DNA from: Candidatus Venteria ishoeyi
Lineage (GTDB): Bacteria > Pseudomonadota > Gammaproteobacteria > Beggiatoales > Beggiatoaceae
Length of the DNA stretch: 64,000 bases
NCBI RefSeq assembly: GCF_030378065.1
Contig: NZ_JAUCGJ010000011.1
Location: forward strand, 1-64,000
Direction: 5' to 3'
Shown: in pieces, positions 51,954 through 60,440 of the stretch
Layout: every line of letters begins with the position of its first letter
Position numbering within the stretch: the stretch's first letter is position 1
Notes under the pieces: generated by a model
What the model was told of the DNA's origin: nothing
The model's database searches: none
What the model saw: only the letters and a program-made list of their open reading frames with translations
Position numbers and translations under genes: made by a program

Positions 51954-53168
51954 TTACCGCGCCAAGCGCGGTAAATCACCTTCCAGACCCATTGCCTGCT
52001 GCATCAATTTATTTTTCAAAGGGTAAGCCGCATCAGTCAAACGCATCCCAATATTGCGCGCCCAGCGCAACGGCAGCCAGGAGTTGCCAAACAAGTTTTT
52101 AAAACCATCCATTGCCAGCAAAATTTTTAGATTTTCACCTTTACGCCAACGCTGATAATGTTGCAGGGTTTCCAATGCACCAATATCGCGGTGTTTAGTT
52201 TGTGCCTGTACAATCACATCAAACAGACTGGCGGCATCCAATAGCCCCATATTCACGCCTTGACCGGCTAAAGGATGAATACTGCGCACGGCATCCCCTA
52301 CCAAAGCAATACGGGGTTTCACATAAGGTTTGGCATGGCGGCGACGCAAGGGGAAAGCAAATAATTCACTACTTTCCAGTACAGAACCTAAGCGCGAATT
52401 AAATGCCTGTTCTAATGCCTGATGAAACGCTGGCTTATCTAAGGCTTGCATGGCTGCGGCCTGTTCTGGTGGCAGACTCCAGACAATAGAGCTGGTATGC
52501 GGCTGAGTCAGTGGCAAAAAAGCCAGCGGCCCGGAAGGTAAAAAGCGTTGGCGCGCTGTAGCCTGATGCGGCAAAGCAGTTTCAATGCTGGCAACCAGGG
52601 CATGATGTCCATAAGGTTGAATATCACAACTGATCCCCGCCAGTTTGCGAATTTGTGAATCACCGCCATCGGCACCCACCAGCAAGCGGGTTGTTAAAAC
52701 TTCACCCGTATCCAGATGCACTGCCAGATAATCTTCATGCTGTTGCAGGTGGCTGACTTTGGTCTCAAAATAGCCGTGTAACTGCGGGAAATCCTGCTGA
52801 CGTTGTTGCAAGGCGTATTGTATGACCTGCAACTCAATAATATGCCCAAGGTTTTCCTGCCCGATATCCTGGTGATCAAAACCAATTTCCCCAAAACTTT
52901 CCCAGACCTGCATGGCCTGATAAGGACTGACCCGCTGCGCGCACATGGCTTCCCAGACCCCCAATGCCCGAAAAATATGCTCGGAAGCACGGCTAATGGC
53001 AAATACCCGGTGATCAAAACCGGGTCTGGAAAAATCGACCGGTTCAATAGGCTGTGCCTTTTTAGCCTCGATCAAACCAGTATGAAAACCCTGTTGCAGC
53101 AGGGCCAGAGTCAGGCTGGCACCGACCAGACCGCCGCCAACCACCAATACATCCAGGGTCTGATTCAT
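51954..53168 (-). CDS. UbiH/UbiF-family FAD-dependent hydroxylase
   Basis: A 404-residue flavin monooxygenase of ubiquinone biosynthesis. The FAD loop is VLVVGGGLVGASLTLALLQQ, the family DG motif LLVGADGGDSQIRKLAG, and the late GD motif RIALVGDAVRSIHPLAGQGVNMGLLD. Which ring carbon it hydroxylates (UbiH, UbiI or UbiF) cannot be decided from sequence. Its ATG overlaps the bamC stop by one base (TAATG), so the two are co-translated. That is an odd pairing of an outer-membrane assembly factor with a quinone enzyme. Confidence 0.92.
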   Translation of the reverse strand: MNQTLDVLVVGGGLVGASLTLALLQQGFHTGLIEAKKAQPIEPVDFSRPGFDHRVFAISRASEHIFRALGVWEAMCAQRVSPYQAMQVWESFGEIGFDHQDIGQENLGHIIELQVIQYALQQRQQDFPQLHGYFETKVSHLQQHEDYLAVHLDTGEVLTTRLLVGADGGDSQIRKLAGISCDIQPYGHHALVASIETALPHQATARQRFLPSGPLAFLPLTQPHTSSIVWSLPPEQAAAMQALDKPAFHQALEQAFNSRLGSVLESSELFAFPLRRRHAKPYVKPRIALVGDAVRSIHPLAGQGVNMGLLDAASLFDVIVQAQTKHRDIGALETLQHYQRWRKGENLKILLAMDGFKNLFGNSWLPLRWARNIGMRLTDAAYPLKNKLMQQAMGLEGDLPRLAR

Positions 53169-54283
53169 TAGCGCAACTGCTCTAGCAATACTTGCAGAAT
53201 CTGTACGCTGACCGCTTCCGGCACGGCTTTGCCGTTTTCATCCAGCACACTAATTTGGGTTGTATTATTGCTCGCTTCATCCAGTTTAATCTGGAAATCA
53301 CGCGCTTTATCAGCTTCATCTCCACGCCAGAAAGCTAAACTGTCAAGCCAGCCTTTATCGTTGTCGGCAACGGTTTTCTGTGGAACATAGCGCACGTAAT
53401 ACAAACCTTTGGCACGATTGCGATCTTCCACGCTAAAGCCACTGCGATCCAAAGCTAAACCGGTTAAACGCCAGCTTTGCATGAAATTCTTGCGTACTCG
53501 CAAGGTCTGTTGTTCTAGCACCGCGCTTGCTTCCTGCACCTGCGCCTTGGCTTGCTGTGCTACTGCCTGTTCTTCGCTCAAGCCCAGATAAACCATCATG
53601 CGATTAAGCATTTCCACTTCCAGCTCTGGATCGGTAGGGCGGTATTGCCAGACAAAGTTCTCACCCTGAGACACTTGTTCTGCACCGCGATGTGTCAGAA
53701 ATATCTCAGTCTGGCCCTGATTATCCGGCGCGTGTTCCAAACGGGTGCGGAATTTATCACGGGTATAAGCTTCCCAGAAAAAGTCCAGTGCCTTGCCTAA
53801 GGTACGGCGCACAAGATCCTGAGGAATATCAGCACGGTTTTCCGTCCATTCGGTCTCCATAATGCCAACTTGCTTGTGATCGCGTTTCAGCAGAAAACCC
53901 GCTTCCAGCCAGAAGGTTTTAACCTTGGGCCAGACTTCATCCACTGGTGCCTTAACCCGCAACCAGCGACTGTTGCCATCACGCAATACCTGGACTGTAT
54001 CGGCAATCGGTAACACCTTTTTTTTCATATTGTGGCTACCAGGGCGGCCTTTGGCCTGATTTTTTTCATATCCAGTCAAGGTGTTATTGCGTTTGCTGCC
54101 GCCAGGAATAACCAGTTCATCTTCCATGGAGGCATCCAGGTCAGGCGGGATTTCCAACTGATTAATGTCATGTGATTTTTTGTATTCAATGCGGCGATCA
54201 TATTTTTCAGTAATGCCGCAGGCTGTCAGTGTCAGCACCAAAAAACTGCCCAGCAATGGCATTAACCAGTGGTTTTTTTTCAT
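53168..54283 (-). CDS. bamC: Outer membrane assembly lipoprotein BamC
   Basis: A 371-residue lipoprotein of the BAM complex. The start at ATG 54283 is preferred: AAGGA lies seven bases upstream, inside a longer frame that begins at 54307. The lipobox is LTLTAC, then the BamC N-terminal segment that contacts BamD (YDRRIEYKKSHDINQLEIPPDLD). Two helix-grip domains follow (about 90-215 with RWLRVKAPVDEVWP, and about 255-371). In E. coli bamC directly follows dapA; here dapA lies 5.3 kb upstream, separated by an accessory block. Confidence 0.92.
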   Translation of the reverse strand: MKKNHWLMPLLGSFLVLTLTACGITEKYDRRIEYKKSHDINQLEIPPDLDASMEDELVIPGGSKRNNTLTGYEKNQAKGRPGSHNMKKKVLPIADTVQVLRDGNSRWLRVKAPVDEVWPKVKTFWLEAGFLLKRDHKQVGIMETEWTENRADIPQDLVRRTLGKALDFFWEAYTRDKFRTRLEHAPDNQGQTEIFLTHRGAEQVSQGENFVWQYRPTDPELEVEMLNRMMVYLGLSEEQAVAQQAKAQVQEASAVLEQQTLRVRKNFMQSWRLTGLALDRSGFSVEDRNRAKGLYYVRYVPQKTVADNDKGWLDSLAFWRGDEADKARDFQIKLDEASNNTTQISVLDENGKAVPEAVSVQILQVLLEQLR

Positions 54284-54378
54284 CAGATATTCCTTTTGGG
54301 TATTCATTTGTAGGCTATACAGTGGGTTTATAAGGTAGCGCTAATTGCGGACATTTTAAGGCTTTAAATTCAGGGTCT

Positions 54379-54474
54379 TTATGCACCAGCGTGGCATCGC
54401 ACTGGCTGCTTCCAGGCATCTGCCAAATCCCGTAATGTCAGTAAAGCAGAGGTATCAAATAGATATGATTTCAT
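54379..54474 (-). pseudogene. Truncated PIN-domain toxin remnant
   Basis: ATG 54474 starts MKSYLFDTSALLTLRDLADA, the N-terminus of a PIN domain with its first active-site Asp. After 31 codons the frame ends at TAA 54379-54381, without the rest of the domain. It overlaps the antitoxin stop (ATGA), as in intact vapBC operons. It is likely inactive. Confidence 0.65.
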
Positions 54475-54686
54475 TTGTGTGCGTTATCCTTGCTACGCTC
54501 CGCCAATAAACGTGCAACCGAATCCTCTTTGCCCTGTCCGCGAAATGCAGCAATCGTATCTTCTTTGACAGGAACGACATGTAAGGTATTACCGTACATA
54601 AACCATTCGAGCCTGCCAGAAGGGGATAGATGCAGTTTTTGCCTGATTTCTGCGGGAATAACAGTTTGGCTTCTGGATGCTGCGCA
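54471..54686 (-). pseudogene. AbrB-type antitoxin remnant lacking its start
   Basis: The frame reads SQTVIPAEIRQKLHLSPSGR, LEWFMYGNTLHVVPVKED, then a helical tail to the stop at 54471. This is the swapped-hairpin AbrB/SpoVT fold common in VapB and MazE antitoxins. Immediately upstream the frame is closed by TAA (54687-54689), and the only near ATG is out of frame by one, so the N-terminus has been lost by a frameshift or deletion. The pair marks past toxin-antitoxin activity at the edge of the dapA-bamC insertion. The remaining gap, 54687-54765, is AT-rich with no gene. Confidence 0.65.
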
Positions 54687-54765
54687 TTAGGAATACCTGG
54701 ATGAATTACCTATTTATATATATTGTAATTCAGTTTATGTAAAACTGTCCAATTAAACAGTGGCT

Positions 54766-55677
54766 TCAACTACGTGCCAAAAAAACCACCTTGCCATCCT
54801 GATCTACAATATAACCCACTAATTGATCATTCGCATCATAAGCTAAAATCTTATCCGCTTGCTGTTTGAAACTGCCCTGCTTTTCGCCCTGCAAATCATA
54901 AACAACCAAAATATCAGCCTCCCGGACAACATGCGCCAGTTCCACGCCTTTTGCGTTATAAACATATAAAATACCGTCCTTAAAACTGGAATAACCGCTG
55001 ATGCTGCCATCGTCTGCATAGCCGTATATGCGCTCAGATTCAGGAAGCTGCTGCCCGGATGAAATTTGTGGCACGGGCATATAATCATGCCTGTTTCCCA
55101 AGGCATCCACAAAATAATTAATAATTTGATCTTCAATTTGCTCTTTTATGAACTGCCCCAGATACTGCTCATCACGGTCATAGGCAAGCAGGCGATTATC
55201 CAGGTTATGTAAGCGTGCCAGCTTTTGACCATCACTACGATATAGCATCAGACCATTTTTTTCCCATTGCGCAAAGCCCGTCTGTTTTCCTGCCTCCCGG
55301 AAAATTAACTTATCACCCTTCACCGTTGCACTGGAAATAATCCGCCCCTGTTTATTACGCACCGTATAAGGCTTTTTACCAAATAAACGCTGCATACGCG
55401 CCTGTCCCTGATGCACATGAACACGCCGGGTTTTTGCTTTGCTCAATAAAGTGGCACTGCGCCGCTGTAATATTTTTTTACCACCACCCTTAGCCAATTG
55501 TCTGAAGCCACTACGCACAACACCTCTGGAAACGCCGCCAGCGGCAACACGCGCAGTTGTTGTAAAAAAACCACGGGCAAAAAAACCGAAAATCCAGGCA
55601 TCAGCCTGACGCGGGAGCAAAGAAACTGAAAGTCCGGAAACCAATAAGGCAATGAGTGAAATTTTTAAATAAGTCAC
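54766..55677 (-). CDS. Exported protein with YD-like beta repeats, unknown family
   Basis: A 303-residue protein with signal peptide (to about residue 27, ADA), a hydrophobic Gly/Phe-rich patch (WIFGFFARGFFTTT), a basic region (about 50-90) and then repeated short beta units. Each unit carries a hydrophobic strand and Asp/Gly turn: AYDRDEQYLGQF, GYADDGSISGY, VYNAKGVELAHV, VYDLQGEKQGSF, AYDANDQLVGYI. The pattern recalls YD/RHS-like or MORN-like surface repeats. No enzyme motif is seen. The ATG overlaps the stop of the gene before it (four bases), so the two are coupled. Confidence 0.7.
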   Translation of the reverse strand: MTYLKISLIALLVSGLSVSLLPRQADAWIFGFFARGFFTTTARVAAGGVSRGVVRSGFRQLAKGGGKKILQRRSATLLSKAKTRRVHVHQGQARMQRLFGKKPYTVRNKQGRIISSATVKGDKLIFREAGKQTGFAQWEKNGLMLYRSDGQKLARLHNLDNRLLAYDRDEQYLGQFIKEQIEDQIINYFVDALGNRHDYMPVPQISSGQQLPESERIYGYADDGSISGYSSFKDGILYVYNAKGVELAHVVREADILVVYDLQGEKQGSFKQQADKILAYDANDQLVGYIVDQDGKVVFLARS

Positions 55678-56564
55678 GGTGAAACCCGCTTCAGCGTTTC
55701 AAGCAATGGCGTGGTTTGCGGGGGTGCGCCATTGACTTGAGTCAGCTTACAATTTGTAAACTTCAATTCAATTTCAGTTTTATCCCGATAATCACGCCGA
55801 TAAAGCCCCTCATAAAAACAAGCTGCCACCAGTTGATCATCGGCTTTCACACCATAGGCGGAAAAATCAGCAAATTCAAAAGCAGCAAAACTCACCCCCT
55901 GATTAGGTGACAAACAGCGAGATTGTTTACAATGCCTGGCAGTGAAAAAATAATTCAGGCGCTGATTTTTATTTTGATCCAGAAAAGCAGCCAGCAGATG
56001 ATTTTTAGCACGTGCAGTGCTGAGCGTATACTCTTTTTGCTGAATATCCCGCATCGGCACGTAAGTGCCGTAAAATATATTTGCCTGGTAATTGCTCGAA
56101 TTAAATGCCAGTATCTCTTTAACTGGCACATCCATAGAAAGACGAAGCCCCGGTGCATTTGCAATGGCGGTTAATAATTCAGTATCATTTTGCTGCAATA
56201 ATGCTATCAAAGAAACCGAACCACCAAAGCGAACCTGTGCGGGGGAAGCCCCTAATAAGGTTTTTTTAACTACCAGGGAAAGCTCGGAATCCAGCAGCTT
56301 TTGCAACGCAACCTCTCCAGCCGGATAACAAATCGCCAAATAACGGCGCGTCAATTCCTCTGCATCTTGTTGATGCATTTCCGGTGTTTGCAACAACTGC
56401 TCTAATTCCGACAAATTAAATGGACGTTTTGCCACATGCTGGTTTTTATCCTGCAAACCGAACATTTGCTGGATGAGTTCTGGAGAAACCTTAAAAACCT
56501 CGCTCGCTAACACAGAGGCAGGAAAGCAGAATAAAATAATAATAATTGAATTTTTTATGTTCAT
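55674..56564 (-). CDS. Exported protein of unknown family
   Basis: A 296-residue protein with a signal peptide (MNIKNSIIIILFCFPASVLA). The N-terminal half is helical (about 25-130). The C-terminal half appears mixed, with cysteines in RHCKQSRCLSP, VAACFYE and FTNCKLTQV that may form disulfides. I do not recognise a domain. It is coupled to the downstream gene at 54766-55677. About 170 bp of hairpins and tandem repeat separate it from the coiled-coil gene at 56737. Context suggests a periplasmic or surface role shared with its neighbours. Confidence 0.7.
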   Translation of the reverse strand: MNIKNSIIIILFCFPASVLASEVFKVSPELIQQMFGLQDKNQHVAKRPFNLSELEQLLQTPEMHQQDAEELTRRYLAICYPAGEVALQKLLDSELSLVVKKTLLGASPAQVRFGGSVSLIALLQQNDTELLTAIANAPGLRLSMDVPVKEILAFNSSNYQANIFYGTYVPMRDIQQKEYTLSTARAKNHLLAAFLDQNKNQRLNYFFTARHCKQSRCLSPNQGVSFAAFEFADFSAYGVKADDQLVAACFYEGLYRRDYRDKTEIELKFTNCKLTQVNGAPPQTTPLLETLKRVSP

Positions 56565-56570
56565 AATTTT

Positions 56571-56612
56571 ACGGTTTACGGTTTACGGTTTACGGTTTAC
56601 GGTTTACGGTTT
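56571..56612. repeat. Tandem heptamer repeat (ACGGTTT)x6
   Basis: Six exact copies of ACGGTTT, followed by ACCTCG. A short relative, CGGTTTACGGTTT, occurs at about 59357, just ahead of the second FGE gene. It lies seven bases upstream of the start codon of the exported protein gene at 55674-56564 (minus strand), so copy-number change could alter its leader. Confidence 0.85.
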
Positions 56613-56619
56613 ACCTCGT

Positions 56620-56728
56620 TCCCAATGTCCTCATTGGGAATGCAGACCTCGCAAGCTCCAGCTTGCAGTATATCAAGCAAAGTTTGCAAAGCAGGCGTTA
56701 CCAGGCAGCGTTTGGTAATGAGGAAAAC
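56620..56728. repeat. Cluster of small hairpins
   Basis: TTCCCAATG-TCCT-CATTGGGAA (about 56628-56650), GCAAGCT-CC-AGCTTGC (about 56653-56668) and a looser CGTTACC/TGGTAATG pair. The outer pair CTCGTTCCC / GGTAATGAGG brackets the cluster. It is a repeat-derived spacer between two minus-strand genes. Confidence 0.55.
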
Positions 56729-56736
56729 CGTAAATA

Positions 56737-57423
56737 TTAATTCCCTTGATTCACTGCCTGCTCAAAATCCCGTAAAGCCTGCTCCAAAGAAACGATGACC
56801 TCATTCATCACATCAATAGATTCTTTATTTGTTGCGCCTGACTGGTTTAATTTACCCGAAATTTTTTGCGCCATTTCATCCAAAGACTGTTCAAAACCCC
56901 GTAATCCCTTCAGGACTTTTTGGCGTTCTCTCAATTTACGCAATTGTAATAACTTAGGTTTGATAGCAGGAAAAAAATTCTGGCTGACTTCGGAAAGTCT
57001 AATACCCATTGCCGAAAGGTTGCGCTCGTCCGCATCCATTTCACTGACATCCGCATCCGCACCGAAATCACGTAAAATACCCGCCCGTCCTTGAGCCAGA
57101 TCATGCAGGCGTTGCGCTAAATCAACATATTGTTTTTGAATCAATAACAATGCTTTTTTCAAGGCCGCGTGTTCTTGTGCCATTTTTGCAATCCAGGGTA
57201 GTAATTGACCTTCATCAAAACGTACATCAGCCTGGTTAAACACGGTTTTATGAAAATACAGGACACCCTCTTGCGCATAGGTATAATTTGCAAATACATG
57301 GACGGCAGGGCCAAGACAATGCGGCTCGCTGGAATTCAGGCGACATTCAGCCAGCGCAATGGATGGCAAGAAAGAACAAATACATAACAAATGGAACAAT
57401 CCTGTGAGTTTAAAACGTATCAT
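56737..57423 (-). CDS. Exported coiled-coil protein, unknown family
   Basis: A 228-residue protein with signal peptide (to about residue 25, IALA), a short Cys-containing segment (ECRLNSSEPHCLGPAVHV) and a region from about 70 to 228 predicted to be nearly all helix with heptads (KKALLLIQKQYVDLAQRLHD, KLLQLRKLRERQ, VSLEQALRDFEQAV). It looks like a periplasmic spacer or scaffold. It is the first gene after the terminator downstream of the two FGE-fold genes. The family is not recognised. Confidence 0.72.
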   Translation of the reverse strand: MIRFKLTGLFHLLCICSFLPSIALAECRLNSSEPHCLGPAVHVFANYTYAQEGVLYFHKTVFNQADVRFDEGQLLPWIAKMAQEHAALKKALLLIQKQYVDLAQRLHDLAQGRAGILRDFGADADVSEMDADERNLSAMGIRLSEVSQNFFPAIKPKLLQLRKLRERQKVLKGLRGFEQSLDEMAQKISGKLNQSGATNKESIDVMNEVIVSLEQALRDFEQAVNQGN

Positions 57424-57435
57424 TTTGTTTCCTGA

Positions 57436-57466
57436 AAATTTTTAAAAAAATGGGGGCCAGCCCCCA
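57436..57466 (-). terminator. Rho-independent terminator after the first FGE gene
   Basis: On the minus strand TGGGGG-CTGG-CCCCCA (57466-57451) is followed by a T-rich run. The stem is GC-rich with a four-base loop. It lies 84 bp after the stop of the FGE gene at 57550 and 126 bp past its variable segment. Stem-loops with four-base loops downstream of variable regions are also used in retroelement homing, so a second role is possible. Confidence 0.7.
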
Positions 57467-57549
57467 TACCCCCGTGTTGTTGATTGTCGAGCAATAATTT
57501 TGACCGCAAACCATCAACTGAAAAGGGTAAAAGTATAAAGAAAAAAGGG

Positions 57550-58356
57550 TTATTTTATCCTGGCGAGACCCGAAAACACCACACGAAACCCGACATCGCT
57601 GCTACGTGTACCAGGGCCGTAGTAGTTGCGGTTGCCAAGGCGCAGGCCAACGCCATCGGTAACCCAGGAGCCGCCGCGCAACACACGAGGGCCTGATGCG
57701 CCAGAGGCATCACATTTTTTAGCATAGGGATTTTTATGCAAGCTACAAGTCCATTCCCAGACATTGCCGTGCACATCATATAAACTAAAAGGATTGGCTT
57801 GATAAGATTTCACCGGTTCTGTCCCTGTATTATTACATTGTTTGTCATCATTAAACTTGGCACCATTACGCGCCCCCTTTTGACATACAGGGGCTTGCGT
57901 ACCCCACCAATAATCAGCCTGACTGCCTGCGCGCGCGGCATATTCCCATTCCCACTCTGTCGGCAGGCGATAGTGTTTCCCTGGCTCGGTTTGATTTAAT
58001 TTGGCGATAAACTGCTCGGCATCCCGGTAACTGACCGGCTCCACCGGATGCTGATCACCTTTAAAATGAGAAGGATTGTCTCCCATCAGTTTTTGCCACT
58101 GCGCCTGGGTGACTTCTGTAGTGCCAACCCATAAAGGATAATCAATAGCACCTGGATAAGCACTATTGCCACCGCCACCGCAATCCTCAAAAAACAGGGG
58201 ATTGCAGCGGCGTTTGGCTGCGATGTCATCCGTTACGCCGCTGGTTGAGTTGCTAATTTTGACAAAATTCATACCAATAGAATTGGTGAATGTTTCTGCT
58301 GCCATACCTGATAAGGAAAATAGTGTAAATAAAGAAAAAATAAAATAAGGCATCAT
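57550..58356 (-). CDS. Exported FGE/C-type-lectin-fold protein, likely diversified target (copy 1)
   Basis: A 268-residue protein with a signal peptide (to about residue 20, GMAA) and a formylglycine-generating-enzyme/sulfatase-modifying-factor fold: NSIGMNFVKI, YPLWVGTTEVTQAQWQKLMG, PVEPVSYRDAEQFIAKLN, YRLPTEWEWEYAAR, LYDVHGNVWEWT, RVLRGGSW and GFRVV. The catalytic Cys pair of true FGE is absent, so it is a binding scaffold and not an enzyme. Residues 232-255, between GGSW and GFR, differ greatly from the paralogue while everything around is the same. Start ATG 58356 or 58353. The gene lies 162 bp after copy 2. Confidence 0.88.
   Translation of the reverse strand: MMPYFIFSLFTLFSLSGMAAETFTNSIGMNFVKISNSTSGVTDDIAAKRRCNPLFFEDCGGGGNSAYPGAIDYPLWVGTTEVTQAQWQKLMGDNPSHFKGDQHPVEPVSYRDAEQFIAKLNQTEPGKHYRLPTEWEWEYAARAGSQADYWWGTQAPVCQKGARNGAKFNDDKQCNNTGTEPVKSYQANPFSLYDVHGNVWEWTCSLHKNPYAKKCDASGASGPRVLRGGSWVTDGVGLRLGNRNYYGPGTRSSDVGFRVVFSGLARIK
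57592..57663 (-). other. Variable segment 1 of the FGE-fold gene (putative DGR variable region)
   Basis: Twenty-four codons for residues 232-255 (VTDGVGLRLGNRNYYGPGTR, then SSDV). Aligned with 58594-58665 without gaps, 16 codons differ at 23 positions, 22 at codon positions 1 or 2. Invariant codons (GAT, CTG CGC CTT GGC, CGC, CCT, CGT) interleave with the variable ones. Flanks are identical for about 106 nt on the 5' side and about 30 nt on the 3' side. Confidence 0.85.
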
Positions 58357-58518
58357 TAATCATCTATAAATTTGTGGTAAACCACGCACTGAAAATTTAA
58401 TAACAACGGAGTCTTCGGATAAACCTACCAACCCCGTTGCCCGTCATCCTGACATTTTATTTTGCAAACCCATCCGTGAGCGGCAAGGACAAATACCGCA
58501 TGGATACCCGAAATGACG

Positions 58519-59346
58519 CTATTGGTATCCATAAATACCAATATTCTGCAAACCGGGTAGGCTGGCGAGACCCGAAAACACCACACGAAACCCGATACCG
58601 TAGTTACGCCCATCAGGGTCGATGCTGACGCGGTAGCCAAGGCGCAGGTAATCGCTATCGCTATCCCAGGAGCCGCCGCGCAACACACGAGGGCCTGATG
58701 CGCCAGAGGCATCACATTTTTTAGCATAGGGATTTTTATGCAAGCTACAAGTCCATTCCCAGACATTGCCATGTACATCATATAAACCAAAAGGATTGGC
58801 TTGATAAGATTTCACCGATCCTGTTCTACTATCATCACATTGGTTAAACCTGGCACCATTACGCGCGCCCTTTTGACATACAGGGGCTTGCGTACCCCAC
58901 CAATAATCAGCCTGACTGCCTGCGCGCGCGGCATATTCCCATTCCCACTCCGTCGGCAGGCGATAGTGTTTCCCTGGCTCGGTTTGATTTAATTTGGCGA
59001 TAAACTGCTCGGCATCCCGGTAACTGACCTGCTCCACCGGATGCTGATCACCTTTAAAATGAGAAGGATTGTCTCCCATCAGTTTTTGCCACTGCGCCTG
59101 GGTGACTTCTGTAGTGCCAACCCATAAAGGATAATCAATAGCACCTGGATAAGCACTATTGCCACCGCCACCGCAATCCTCAAAAAACAGGGGATTGCAG
59201 CGGCGTTTGGCTGCGATGTCATCCGTTACGCTGCCCTTGGATGCGCCAACTTTGACAAACTTCATACCGATGGTATTGGTAAAGCTTTCTGCCGCTGAAA
59301 TTGATAAGGAAAACAGAAATAACAGAGGGAAAATAAAATAAGGCAT
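58519..59346 (-). CDS. Exported FGE/C-type-lectin-fold protein, likely diversified target (copy 2)
   Basis: A 275-residue paralogue of the gene at 57550, upstream of it on the same strand. It has the same signal peptide type (FLFSLSISAAES) and the same fold motifs (YPLWVGTTEVTQAQWQKLMG, YRLPTEWEWEYAAR, VHGNVWEWT, RVLRGGSW). The variable stretch is residues 228-251 (DSDSDYLRLGYRVSIDPDGR, then NYGI). After the shared FSGLA, it has a different tail (SLPGLQNIGIYGYQ) where copy 1 ends. No FGE active-site cysteines are present. Outside the variable segment the two genes differ sparsely, apart from the signal peptide and a short loop near residue 180. Confidence 0.88.
   Translation of the reverse strand: MPYFIFPLLFLFSLSISAAESFTNTIGMKFVKVGASKGSVTDDIAAKRRCNPLFFEDCGGGGNSAYPGAIDYPLWVGTTEVTQAQWQKLMGDNPSHFKGDQHPVEQVSYRDAEQFIAKLNQTEPGKHYRLPTEWEWEYAARAGSQADYWWGTQAPVCQKGARNGARFNQCDDSRTGSVKSYQANPFGLYDVHGNVWEWTCSLHKNPYAKKCDASGASGPRVLRGGSWDSDSDYLRLGYRVSIDPDGRNYGIGFRVVFSGLASLPGLQNIGIYGYQ
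58522..58541 (-). promoter_or_regulatory. Stem-loop just past the variable segment of FGE copy 2
   Basis: TTGGTAT and ATACCAA form a perfect 7-bp stem with a six-base loop, inside the last codons of the gene and 52 bp past the variable segment. Many retroelement targets need a hairpin downstream of the variable region for homing. The match to that role is inference. Confidence 0.4.
58594..58665 (-). other. Variable segment 2 of the FGE-fold gene (putative DGR variable region)
   Basis: The counterpart of 57592-57663. Coding-strand codons here retain more A at the differing positions (for example GAT, AGC, AAC, TAC). Of 23 differences, 20 have an A in one of the two copies. Third codon positions are unchanged except in one codon (ACA against GGG). 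The pattern fits adenine-directed mutagenesis copied from a template repeat. Confidence 0.85.
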
Positions 59347-59432
59347 GATGGGGACTCGGTTTACGGTTTAAAACTAATACGTTACAAAACCACTTGCAAT
59401 TAATTGGCTTTGCTCATCAATCCATCAATATT

Positions 59433-59515
59433 TCCCGCAGAGACGCAAAGGTGCAGAGACTTTAGAGCTGTCTTTAAGCTTTTCTCTGCGTCCCTGCGCC
59501 TCTGCGGGAGGTATA
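59433..59515. repeat. CTGCG-type long inverted repeat
   Basis: TCCCGCAGAGACGCAAAGGT and ACGCAGAGAAAAGC-type arms (right arm CTCTGCGTCCCTGCGCCTCT, then GCGGGAGG) pair with small mismatches around about 30 bases. It separates the FGE block from dapA and may terminate dapA transcripts. Similar elements with CTGCG cores are near 25240 and 47725. Confidence 0.6.
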
Positions 59516-59564
59516 AAAGGTTGCCGAATCAGAAACTAAGGCCAATTCAGCGTTATAGGTTTTG

Positions 59565-60440
59565 TTATACTTTCTCCGCCTGCTGCATCGCGCTTTTCAC
59601 CGCTTCATGATGGACTTCAGACAAGGGGGTTAAAGGCAAGCGAATCACACCCGAAAGCAGACCTTGTTGCTGCACTGCCCATTTGACCGGAATGGGATTG
59701 GGTTCTGCAAATAAACTGCTGTGCAAGCCTTGTAAGGTCACATCAATGGCATCTGCTGCTGCGATATTACCTGCCAGTGCCTGCTGACACATGTCATGCA
59801 TGGCTTTTGGTGCGACATTGGCCGTGACTGAAATGACGCCGTTACCACCCAGTGCCATAAGTTCTAAAGCGCTGTCGTCATTACCGCTGAACAGCAGAAA
59901 ATCCTCGCCGCATAAACGCCGCTGCAAACGCACCCGCATCAAATCTCCGGTGGCATCTTTCAGGCCGATAATTCCCGGCAGTTTTGCCAGACGCGCCACA
60001 GTTTCAGGTAATAAATCACAACCCGTGCGCCCCGGTACATTATAAAGAATGATCGGCAAATCCACCGCTGTGCTGATGGCTTTAAAATGTTGATATAAAC
60101 CTTCCTGAGTGGGTTTATTATAATATGGCGTCACCGAAAGGCTGGCTTGTACCCCGGCAGCTTTTGCGCATTTGCTTAAAGCAATCGCTTCAGCCGTGGC
60201 ATTAGCACCTGTGCCGCCAATAATCGGGATACGCCCTTTGGCTTGTTCAACCGCGGTCTTCAATAACTGGCAATGTTCCTGATGACTGAGGGTTGCAGAT
60301 TCTCCCGTGGTGCCAACGATCACCAGACCGTCGCTGCCCTGTTCGATATGATGCTCAATCAAACGCCGGAAAGCGGCATCGTCCAGACTGCCGTCTTCCT
60401 GCATCGGTGTGACTAAGGCCACAATACTGCCCTGAAACAT
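59565..60440 (-). CDS. dapA: 4-hydroxy-tetrahydrodipicolinate synthase
   Basis: First committed step of lysine and diaminopimelate synthesis: condenses pyruvate with aspartate semialdehyde. Motifs are FQGSIVALVTPM, GTTGESATLSHQEH (GTTGE), SVTPYYNKPTQEG with the catalytic Tyr, and IGLKDATGD with the Schiff-base Lys near residue 160. It has 291 residues, as in E. coli. Its usual downstream neighbour bamC has been displaced 5.3 kb away by an accessory block. Confidence 0.97.
   Translation of the reverse strand: MFQGSIVALVTPMQEDGSLDDAAFRRLIEHHIEQGSDGLVIVGTTGESATLSHQEHCQLLKTAVEQAKGRIPIIGGTGANATAEAIALSKCAKAAGVQASLSVTPYYNKPTQEGLYQHFKAISTAVDLPIILYNVPGRTGCDLLPETVARLAKLPGIIGLKDATGDLMRVRLQRRLCGEDFLLFSGNDDSALELMALGGNGVISVTANVAPKAMHDMCQQALAGNIAAADAIDVTLQGLHSSLFAEPNPIPVKWAVQQQGLLSGVIRLPLTPLSEVHHEAVKSAMQQAEKV

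Follow-up and report, generated by a model that had tools for sequence, protein, structure and literature searches.

Variable regions of diversity-generating retroelement type in two tandem FGE-domain genes of Candidatus Venteria ishoeyi, one of them running into a template-type RNA element

Two tandem genes for FGE-domain proteins in the genome of Candidatus Venteria ishoeyi differ densely within one short segment near their 3' ends and are identical on either side of it. Are these segments variable regions (VRs) written by a diversity-generating retroelement (DGR) and, if so, where are the template repeat (TR) and the reverse transcriptase (RT) belonging to them? Both genes lie in the window, i.e., the whole stretch of 64,000 nt that was analyzed. 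The original prediction, made from the letters of the window, regarded the pair as remote targets of a DGR sited elsewhere in the genome. The features discussed here are listed in Table 1.

Table 1. Features of the tandem gene pair and of the element between the two variable regions (positions in the window)
Feature	Position	Strand	Basis
Gene 1, secreted-looking FGE/C-type-lectin protein, 268 aa	57550-58356	-	Pfam FGE-sulfatase 3e-42; N-terminal hydrophobic stretch by eye
VR1	57592-57663	-	Unlike VR2 at 23 positions; a single A-rich template could account for these
Target-type 3' flank of gene 1	57521-57565	-	Resembles 3' flanks of three C10 targets
Gene 2, FGE/C-type-lectin protein, 275 aa	58519-59346	-	Pfam FGE-sulfatase 3.9e-41
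VR2	58594-58665	-	23 differences to VR1
Putative template-RNA 3' element (sp-like)	58402-58559	-	Covariance model R1 and helices P1-P4
Helix P1	58559-58554/58510-58505	-	Hand or script pairing
Helix P2	58543-58534/58529-58520	-	R1 and hand pairing
Helix P3	within 58490-58468	-	R1 and hand pairing
Helix P4	58441-58431/58412-58402	-	Hand or script pairing

Variable segments of the two FGE-domain genes

Both VRs are 72 nt long and placed between GGSW and GFR, as are those of the complete DGR that the genome carries on contig C10. Recounting reproduced the figures of the original prediction, with 23 of the 72 positions unlike between the copies, 9, 13 and 1 of them at codon positions 1, 2 and 3 (22 of 23 at the first two; chance P = 0.0011 for at least that many), and an A in one copy at 20 of the 23. 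The flanks without any difference, previously put at about 106 and 30 nt, were confirmed with slightly different sizes, namely 105 nt 5' and 32 nt 3' of the segments. Eleven differences fall at an A of VR2, nine at an A of VR1 and three at neither, and one A-rich template, itself not found, is compatible with all of them. As an internal control, the 39 aligned codons at the beginning of the two genes hold 32 differences (11, 6 and 15 at codon positions 1, 2 and 3), and codons 40-160 only two; the pattern seen in the VRs is thus a local one and does not extend over the whole pair. A second variable patch was observed at codons ~160-185, with 11 differences in 22 aligned codons amid near-identical gene bodies; it shows no adenine pattern, contains a 3-codon indel and is unexplained.

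Among solved structures, the Treponema denticola variable protein 1 (2y3c, 4e-27) comes closest to gene 2; it aligned through RVLRGGSW...GFR, and the VR position corresponds to the end of the C-type-lectin/FGE domain. We take the T. denticola protein to be a DGR target with its VR at the corresponding place. A close relative of the pair was not found in the family, where only three matches lie outside the own genome (E up to 1e-40), the best with 49% identity; the genus is represented by one genome. Concerning the surroundings, the pair and three further genes (53168-60440) separate a BamC-like from a DapA-like gene (named by eye); BamC and DapA genes are usually adjacent in gammaproteobacteria. 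A short tandem run of TTTACGG-type heptamers was also seen by eye between two genes at 56575-56617, with a similar stretch near 59355.

The assembly of the window genome (4.41 Mb, 115 contigs, 98.8% complete) contains four RT matches. Contig C10 (L011) bears a complete DGR. It comprises Avd (NCBIfam DivGenRetAVD 3.7e-26, Pfam bAvd), an RT immediately followed by a TR, and three targets that combine caspase and FGE domains; its order on one strand is target-VR, Avd, RT, TR and 3' RNA element. Its three VRs differ from the TR at 52 of 87 A positions and at none of 129 non-A positions. The TR of C10 and those of relatives, which played no part in choosing the window pair, were compared with it in eight Fisher tests; these are mutually non-independent and cover 8 of the 14 templates found (C10 and 7 of 13 TRs of relatives; G013, which is shorter, G016, G021, G026, G014 C147 and G016 C133 were left out). 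C10 TR adenines occur at 17 of the 23 variable sites of the pair, against 12 of the 49 invariable ones (9e-5), and the variable sites also coincide with A in the TRs of the seven relatives (9e-6 to 6e-8). Restricting the tests to codon positions 1 and 2 gave 0.018 (C10) and 0.0074 to 5.5e-5 (relatives). Additionally, a 129-nt template deduced from both VRs, with A at the variable sites, matched 11 of the 42 genomes of the family; an A-rich TR was seen in 10 of these 11, C10 included, and only 24 nt of flank matched in G029.

Could the two genes be ordinary paralogues, shaped by diversifying selection in a ligand-binding loop and by gene conversion elsewhere, with no retroelement involved? The pair is indeed a mosaic of near-identical and diverged stretches and the second patch lacks the A pattern, both as expected of such paralogues. 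However, third positions agree in 23 of the 24 VR codons, yet 16 codons change their amino acid; moreover, the variable sites match template adenines and a template-type element is attached to gene 2 (see below), which leaves this explanation highly improbable. The coincidence with template adenines, the Pfam FGE-sulfatase matches and the alignment to the T. denticola protein support the view, already taken in the original prediction, that the pair carries DGR-type VRs in proteins of the FGE/C-type-lectin fold.

The RNA element behind gene 2

Between the two VR segments lies an element that had previously gone unmentioned. The VR2 side runs straight into it, and the last codons and the stop of gene 2 fall inside it. 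The 3' side of gene 2 aligned with the sequence after the C10 TR with a local score of 70 (0/200 shuffles) and the same stretch was seen by blastn; the point of the switch, CGCCAG, is also the end of VR/TR homology in C10. The 3' flank of gene 1 was compared with those of the three C10 targets, giving scores of 28, 28 and 33, each reached by 0/200 shuffles (blastn: 56 nt, 73-75% identity, E = 5e-4, 0.006 and 0.006).

Covariance model R1 was built from the elements of C10 and of the relatives G014, G026 and G018, without gene 2, and it was restricted to P2 and P3 because MAFFT alignments with P1 misplaced the 5' strand of that helix. It recognized the gene 2 element with 70.8 bits (E = 1.4e-12). 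Throughout the window genome it gave exactly two matches, C10 (1.9e-19) and gene 2, under Infernal's stricter filters, with which weak matches such as a divergent third element could be lost; with default filters over ten stretches of the own genome the same two again stood out. Of the 42 family genomes, nine contain R1 matches at E up to 1 (13 in total); nine of these matches, in seven genomes, were below 1e-11. An A-rich TR lies directly upstream in six of these nine (C10, G014 twice, G016, G018 and G026), and no upstream TR is present in the other three, namely gene 2, where the VR stands, G032 and G025 (by eye). Model R2, which includes gene 2, was run at E = 0.001 over 369 genomes sampled evenly from the class and detected only the own genome (G000), G014, G235 and G272, while a wider search at order level gave the same 42 genomes as the family. 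No match near the curated scores of Rfam was obtained for the C10 or the window element.

Two of the loci without an upstream TR were inspected by eye. In G032 (C182; L170 943-1600) a target gene of caspase/FGE-like type, internally deleted and lacking the VR, is fused directly to a well-kept element, and no RT was seen within 3 kb. In G025 (C261; L169 ~1400-1592) a MITE-like inverted repeat takes the place of the TR before the element, and an Avd-like gene is found on the opposite strand.

The pairing of the element was followed by hand and by model. Between the C10 and gene 2 elements 28 of 66 paired bases differ and all 33 hand-assigned pairs of P1-P4 are standard in both, a count that omits one P2 position mispaired in C10 and overstates the evidence somewhat, since the strands were hand-chosen from folds and alignments in a way that favours pairing. 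Eleven pairs are altered on both sides, and under random changes a mean of 16.4 pairs survives, with a maximum of 28 over 100,000 draws. In the model's own register the gene 2 element has 15 of 16 standard pairs (P2 9/9, P3 6/7); the hand pairing moves the outer P3 strand by one base relative to it. Over nine sequences, in an alignment that was fitted to R1, two-sided changes support P2 and P3 (26 cells, 0/500 shuffles), with six of the eight pairs concerned belonging to P2, and 92.7% of the cells are paired, against at most 51.9% when slid. The lowest-energy fold of the gene 2 element contains P1, P2 and P4 and replaces P3 by another pairing, and the folding energy is unremarkable (z = -1.76 for gene 2, -0.38 for C10 and 0.43 for G014). 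In a scripted helix search the P1 of G025 and G016 and the P4 of G018 and G014b are probably chance pairings, and no P4 was found in the G016 element.

In conserved sequence and helices the gene 2 element agrees with the template-RNA 3' elements of DGRs. The Bordetella phage DGR has a spacer downstream of its TR that folds and recruits bRT-Avd, and an adenine in this spacer primes cDNA synthesis (PMC12875486, available sections). Its position and conserved structure suggest that the window element is the counterpart of that spacer. The sp region of BPP-1 is likewise a structured RNA directly 3' of the TR, but its place is between TR and brt, where it recruits bRT-Avd, whereas the window element stands behind a coding VR and its function is putative (excerpts of PMC12875486). 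The BPP-1 target requires a hairpin/cruciform in the DNA that follows its VR (PMC3240598).

An element in this state could still be in use. The transcript of gene 2, i.e., VR2 with an intact 3' element, would then serve in trans as a template for the RT and Avd of C10, and VR2, being both protein-coding VR and template, would rewrite gene 1 and itself while slowly consuming its own adenines. The nearly or fully intact pairing speaks for this, as does the presence on C10 of an RT and an Avd of the same element type. Nevertheless, VR2 is not A-rich (A fraction of 0.21, against 0.40 in the C10 TR) and 12 of the 23 differences lie where VR2 has no A (nine with A in VR1, three with A in neither), so VR2 in its present form was not the source of VR1; the reverse candidate, VR1 as direct parent of VR2, was likewise rejected with 14 of 23 differences at non-A positions of VR1. 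An intact element is also weak proof of use, because the fusion in G032 has lost its VR and still keeps 8 of 9 pairs in P2, all seven in P3 and a P4 of 12 pairs. We consider such a coding template unlikely.

Search for a template and an engine

The DGR of C10 shares with the window pair a 72-nt VR, a similar codon scaffold, FGE-type targets and a homologous template 3' element. It differs in having Avd, RT, an A-rich TR and a caspase domain in its targets, and its element is not fused to a coding gene; the window pair is without RT, Avd and TR and has its element joined to one. According to the original prediction, a third copy of the 72-nt segment with A at the variable positions should exist elsewhere in the genome, and a search across the assembly found no fitting template. 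Specifically, the skeleton pattern with up to three mismatches matched the pair alone in the whole assembly, and the A-template deduced from the VRs retrieved only the pair, the C10 TR and a shared flank of 26-32 nt at the three C10 targets. The C10 TR as it stands was rejected as the writer of the pair, as 19 and 22 of 43 non-A positions differ (this comparison by alignment covered the C10 TR and left out the C27 repeat described below). One exact template pattern had no match in IMG/VR, where records near the window genome may be absent.

Inside the window, tblastn at E up to 1 gave no match to the C10 RT, and for the C10 Avd a best value of 0.25 with no recognizable remnant. An A-rich TR was not found at the locus, where VR2 occupies the place of the template. 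RT and TR are absent here while the VRs are kept, which is the condition of an orphan DGR, within the limits of an assembly of 115 contigs; RT and TR would have been lost from the locus rather than never present. Of the remote-target proposal, the DGR type of the pair and the existence of RTs elsewhere (C10, and C27 as judged by its surroundings) stood, and a fitting template elsewhere did not. Gene 2 sits on a template-RNA 3' element, so the locus resembles what is left of a DGR more than a plain pair of remote targets.

It is also conceivable that the assembly lacks the cognate RT and template, or that the assembler joined VR2 to the far end of the TR. The 115 contigs leave room for this and another VR family of the genome is likewise without a template in a pattern search of the assembly. 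On the other side stand the completeness of 98.8% and the detection of only two elements (under the stricter Infernal filters) and four RTs; moreover, a complete missing locus would be needed together with a false junction exactly at the end of homology. This explanation too is improbable.

Apart from C10, several loci were noted. A second DGR-looking RT of 525 aa is located on contig C27 (112071-115718; L010) between two putative target genes, and an A-rich repeat is found where its frame begins; the C-termini of the flanking genes resemble DUF1566/Lcl_C, presumably another target type. Contig C86 (83541-87155; L007) encodes a 995-aa RT-Cas1 fusion (NCBIfam cas1 2e-62, above its cut-off), and an RT with the look of a group II intron is cut by the contig edge at C45:3-473 (L008). 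The VR family without template mentioned above is the third of the genome and involves three FGE domains, at C93:755-2428 (L140 764-868 and 1766-1870, minus strand) and C2:873-1610 (L141 1497-1601). Its members have a common scaffold with NNC-patterned variable codons and differ pairwise at 11, 15 and 16 positions per 72 nt, none of them third positions. The C93 gene adjoins a gene for an AAA-type ATPase (best NCBIfam match MadB, below its cut-off), and the locus is perhaps a ternary conflict system.

Possible origin of the locus

We favor, with a probability of roughly 60%, the reading that the window preserves what is left of a second DGR, akin to that of C10, after a recombination of target and template repeats had taken out Avd, RT and TR. 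Two FGE-type targets would have been diversified by mutagenic copying from an A-rich TR, of which the pattern described above is the visible trace, at an ancestral locus presumably ordered as in C10 (target-VR, Avd, RT, TR, 3' element). As direct repeats, the gene 2 VR and the TR would then have undergone homologous recombination, with deletion of Avd, RT and TR. In the product the VR of gene 2 would adjoin the template 3' element at CGCCAG, and gene 1, with its normal target-type flank, would come next. The pair would retain the diversity written before the loss and would undergo no ordinary rewriting for want of a fitting template, unless one is provided by other cells of the population or by a copy missing from the assembly. 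VR2, with its A fraction of 0.21, is VR-like and not TR-like, so the crossover may have occurred 3' of the variable sites, or VR2 may have been rewritten later.

A comparable order was seen in L188, from another family of the class, where target, Avd-like gene, RT start, TR and element follow each other on one strand (genes named by eye). The lost Avd, RT and TR of the window locus and any undeleted ancestor were never seen, and the deletion at gene 2 is deduced from the junction's present form. The near-absent decay of the gene 2 element would fit a very recent loss and equally a continued use. Gene conversion may also have acted, as the N-terminal parts look like those of older paralogues and the patch at codons 160-185 has no explanation. 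G032 looks like a second, more decayed case of fusion between a target and the element.

Orphan VRs and degenerate DGR loci are already known (PMC4891356; PMC10907252, in the sections available). In T. denticola SP32 a VR gene is left over after DGR loss; its VR is closer to a template type now absent from the genome, and, unlike at window gene 2, no template RNA element is mentioned there in the accessible text (PMC4891356). Thiohalocapsa PB-PSB1 offers a closer setting, being a sulfur bacterium with several DGRs, degenerate and trans-diversified loci, some without RT or TR, and targets of conflict type; the losses are ascribed there to transposons and MITE-like arrays, and the excerpts describe no fusion of target and element (PMC10907252). 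Remote DGR targets are expected to be under-counted (PMC8144416, in part). Across the accessible portions of the open-licence PMC literature, searched for DGRs in general rather than for such fusions, a target gene fused to a template 3' element was not encountered. What the present locus adds is the VR of gene 2 running straight into a putative template-type structured RNA element.

The locus raises the question of whether a stranded VR with its 3' element can act as a template in trans. It also suggests a concrete route by which a DGR may lose its engine, in which recombination between VR and TR welds a target to the template 3' RNA element. Since the RNA model finds such scars without an RT or a template, some orphan VRs may be recognizable even where no TR remains.
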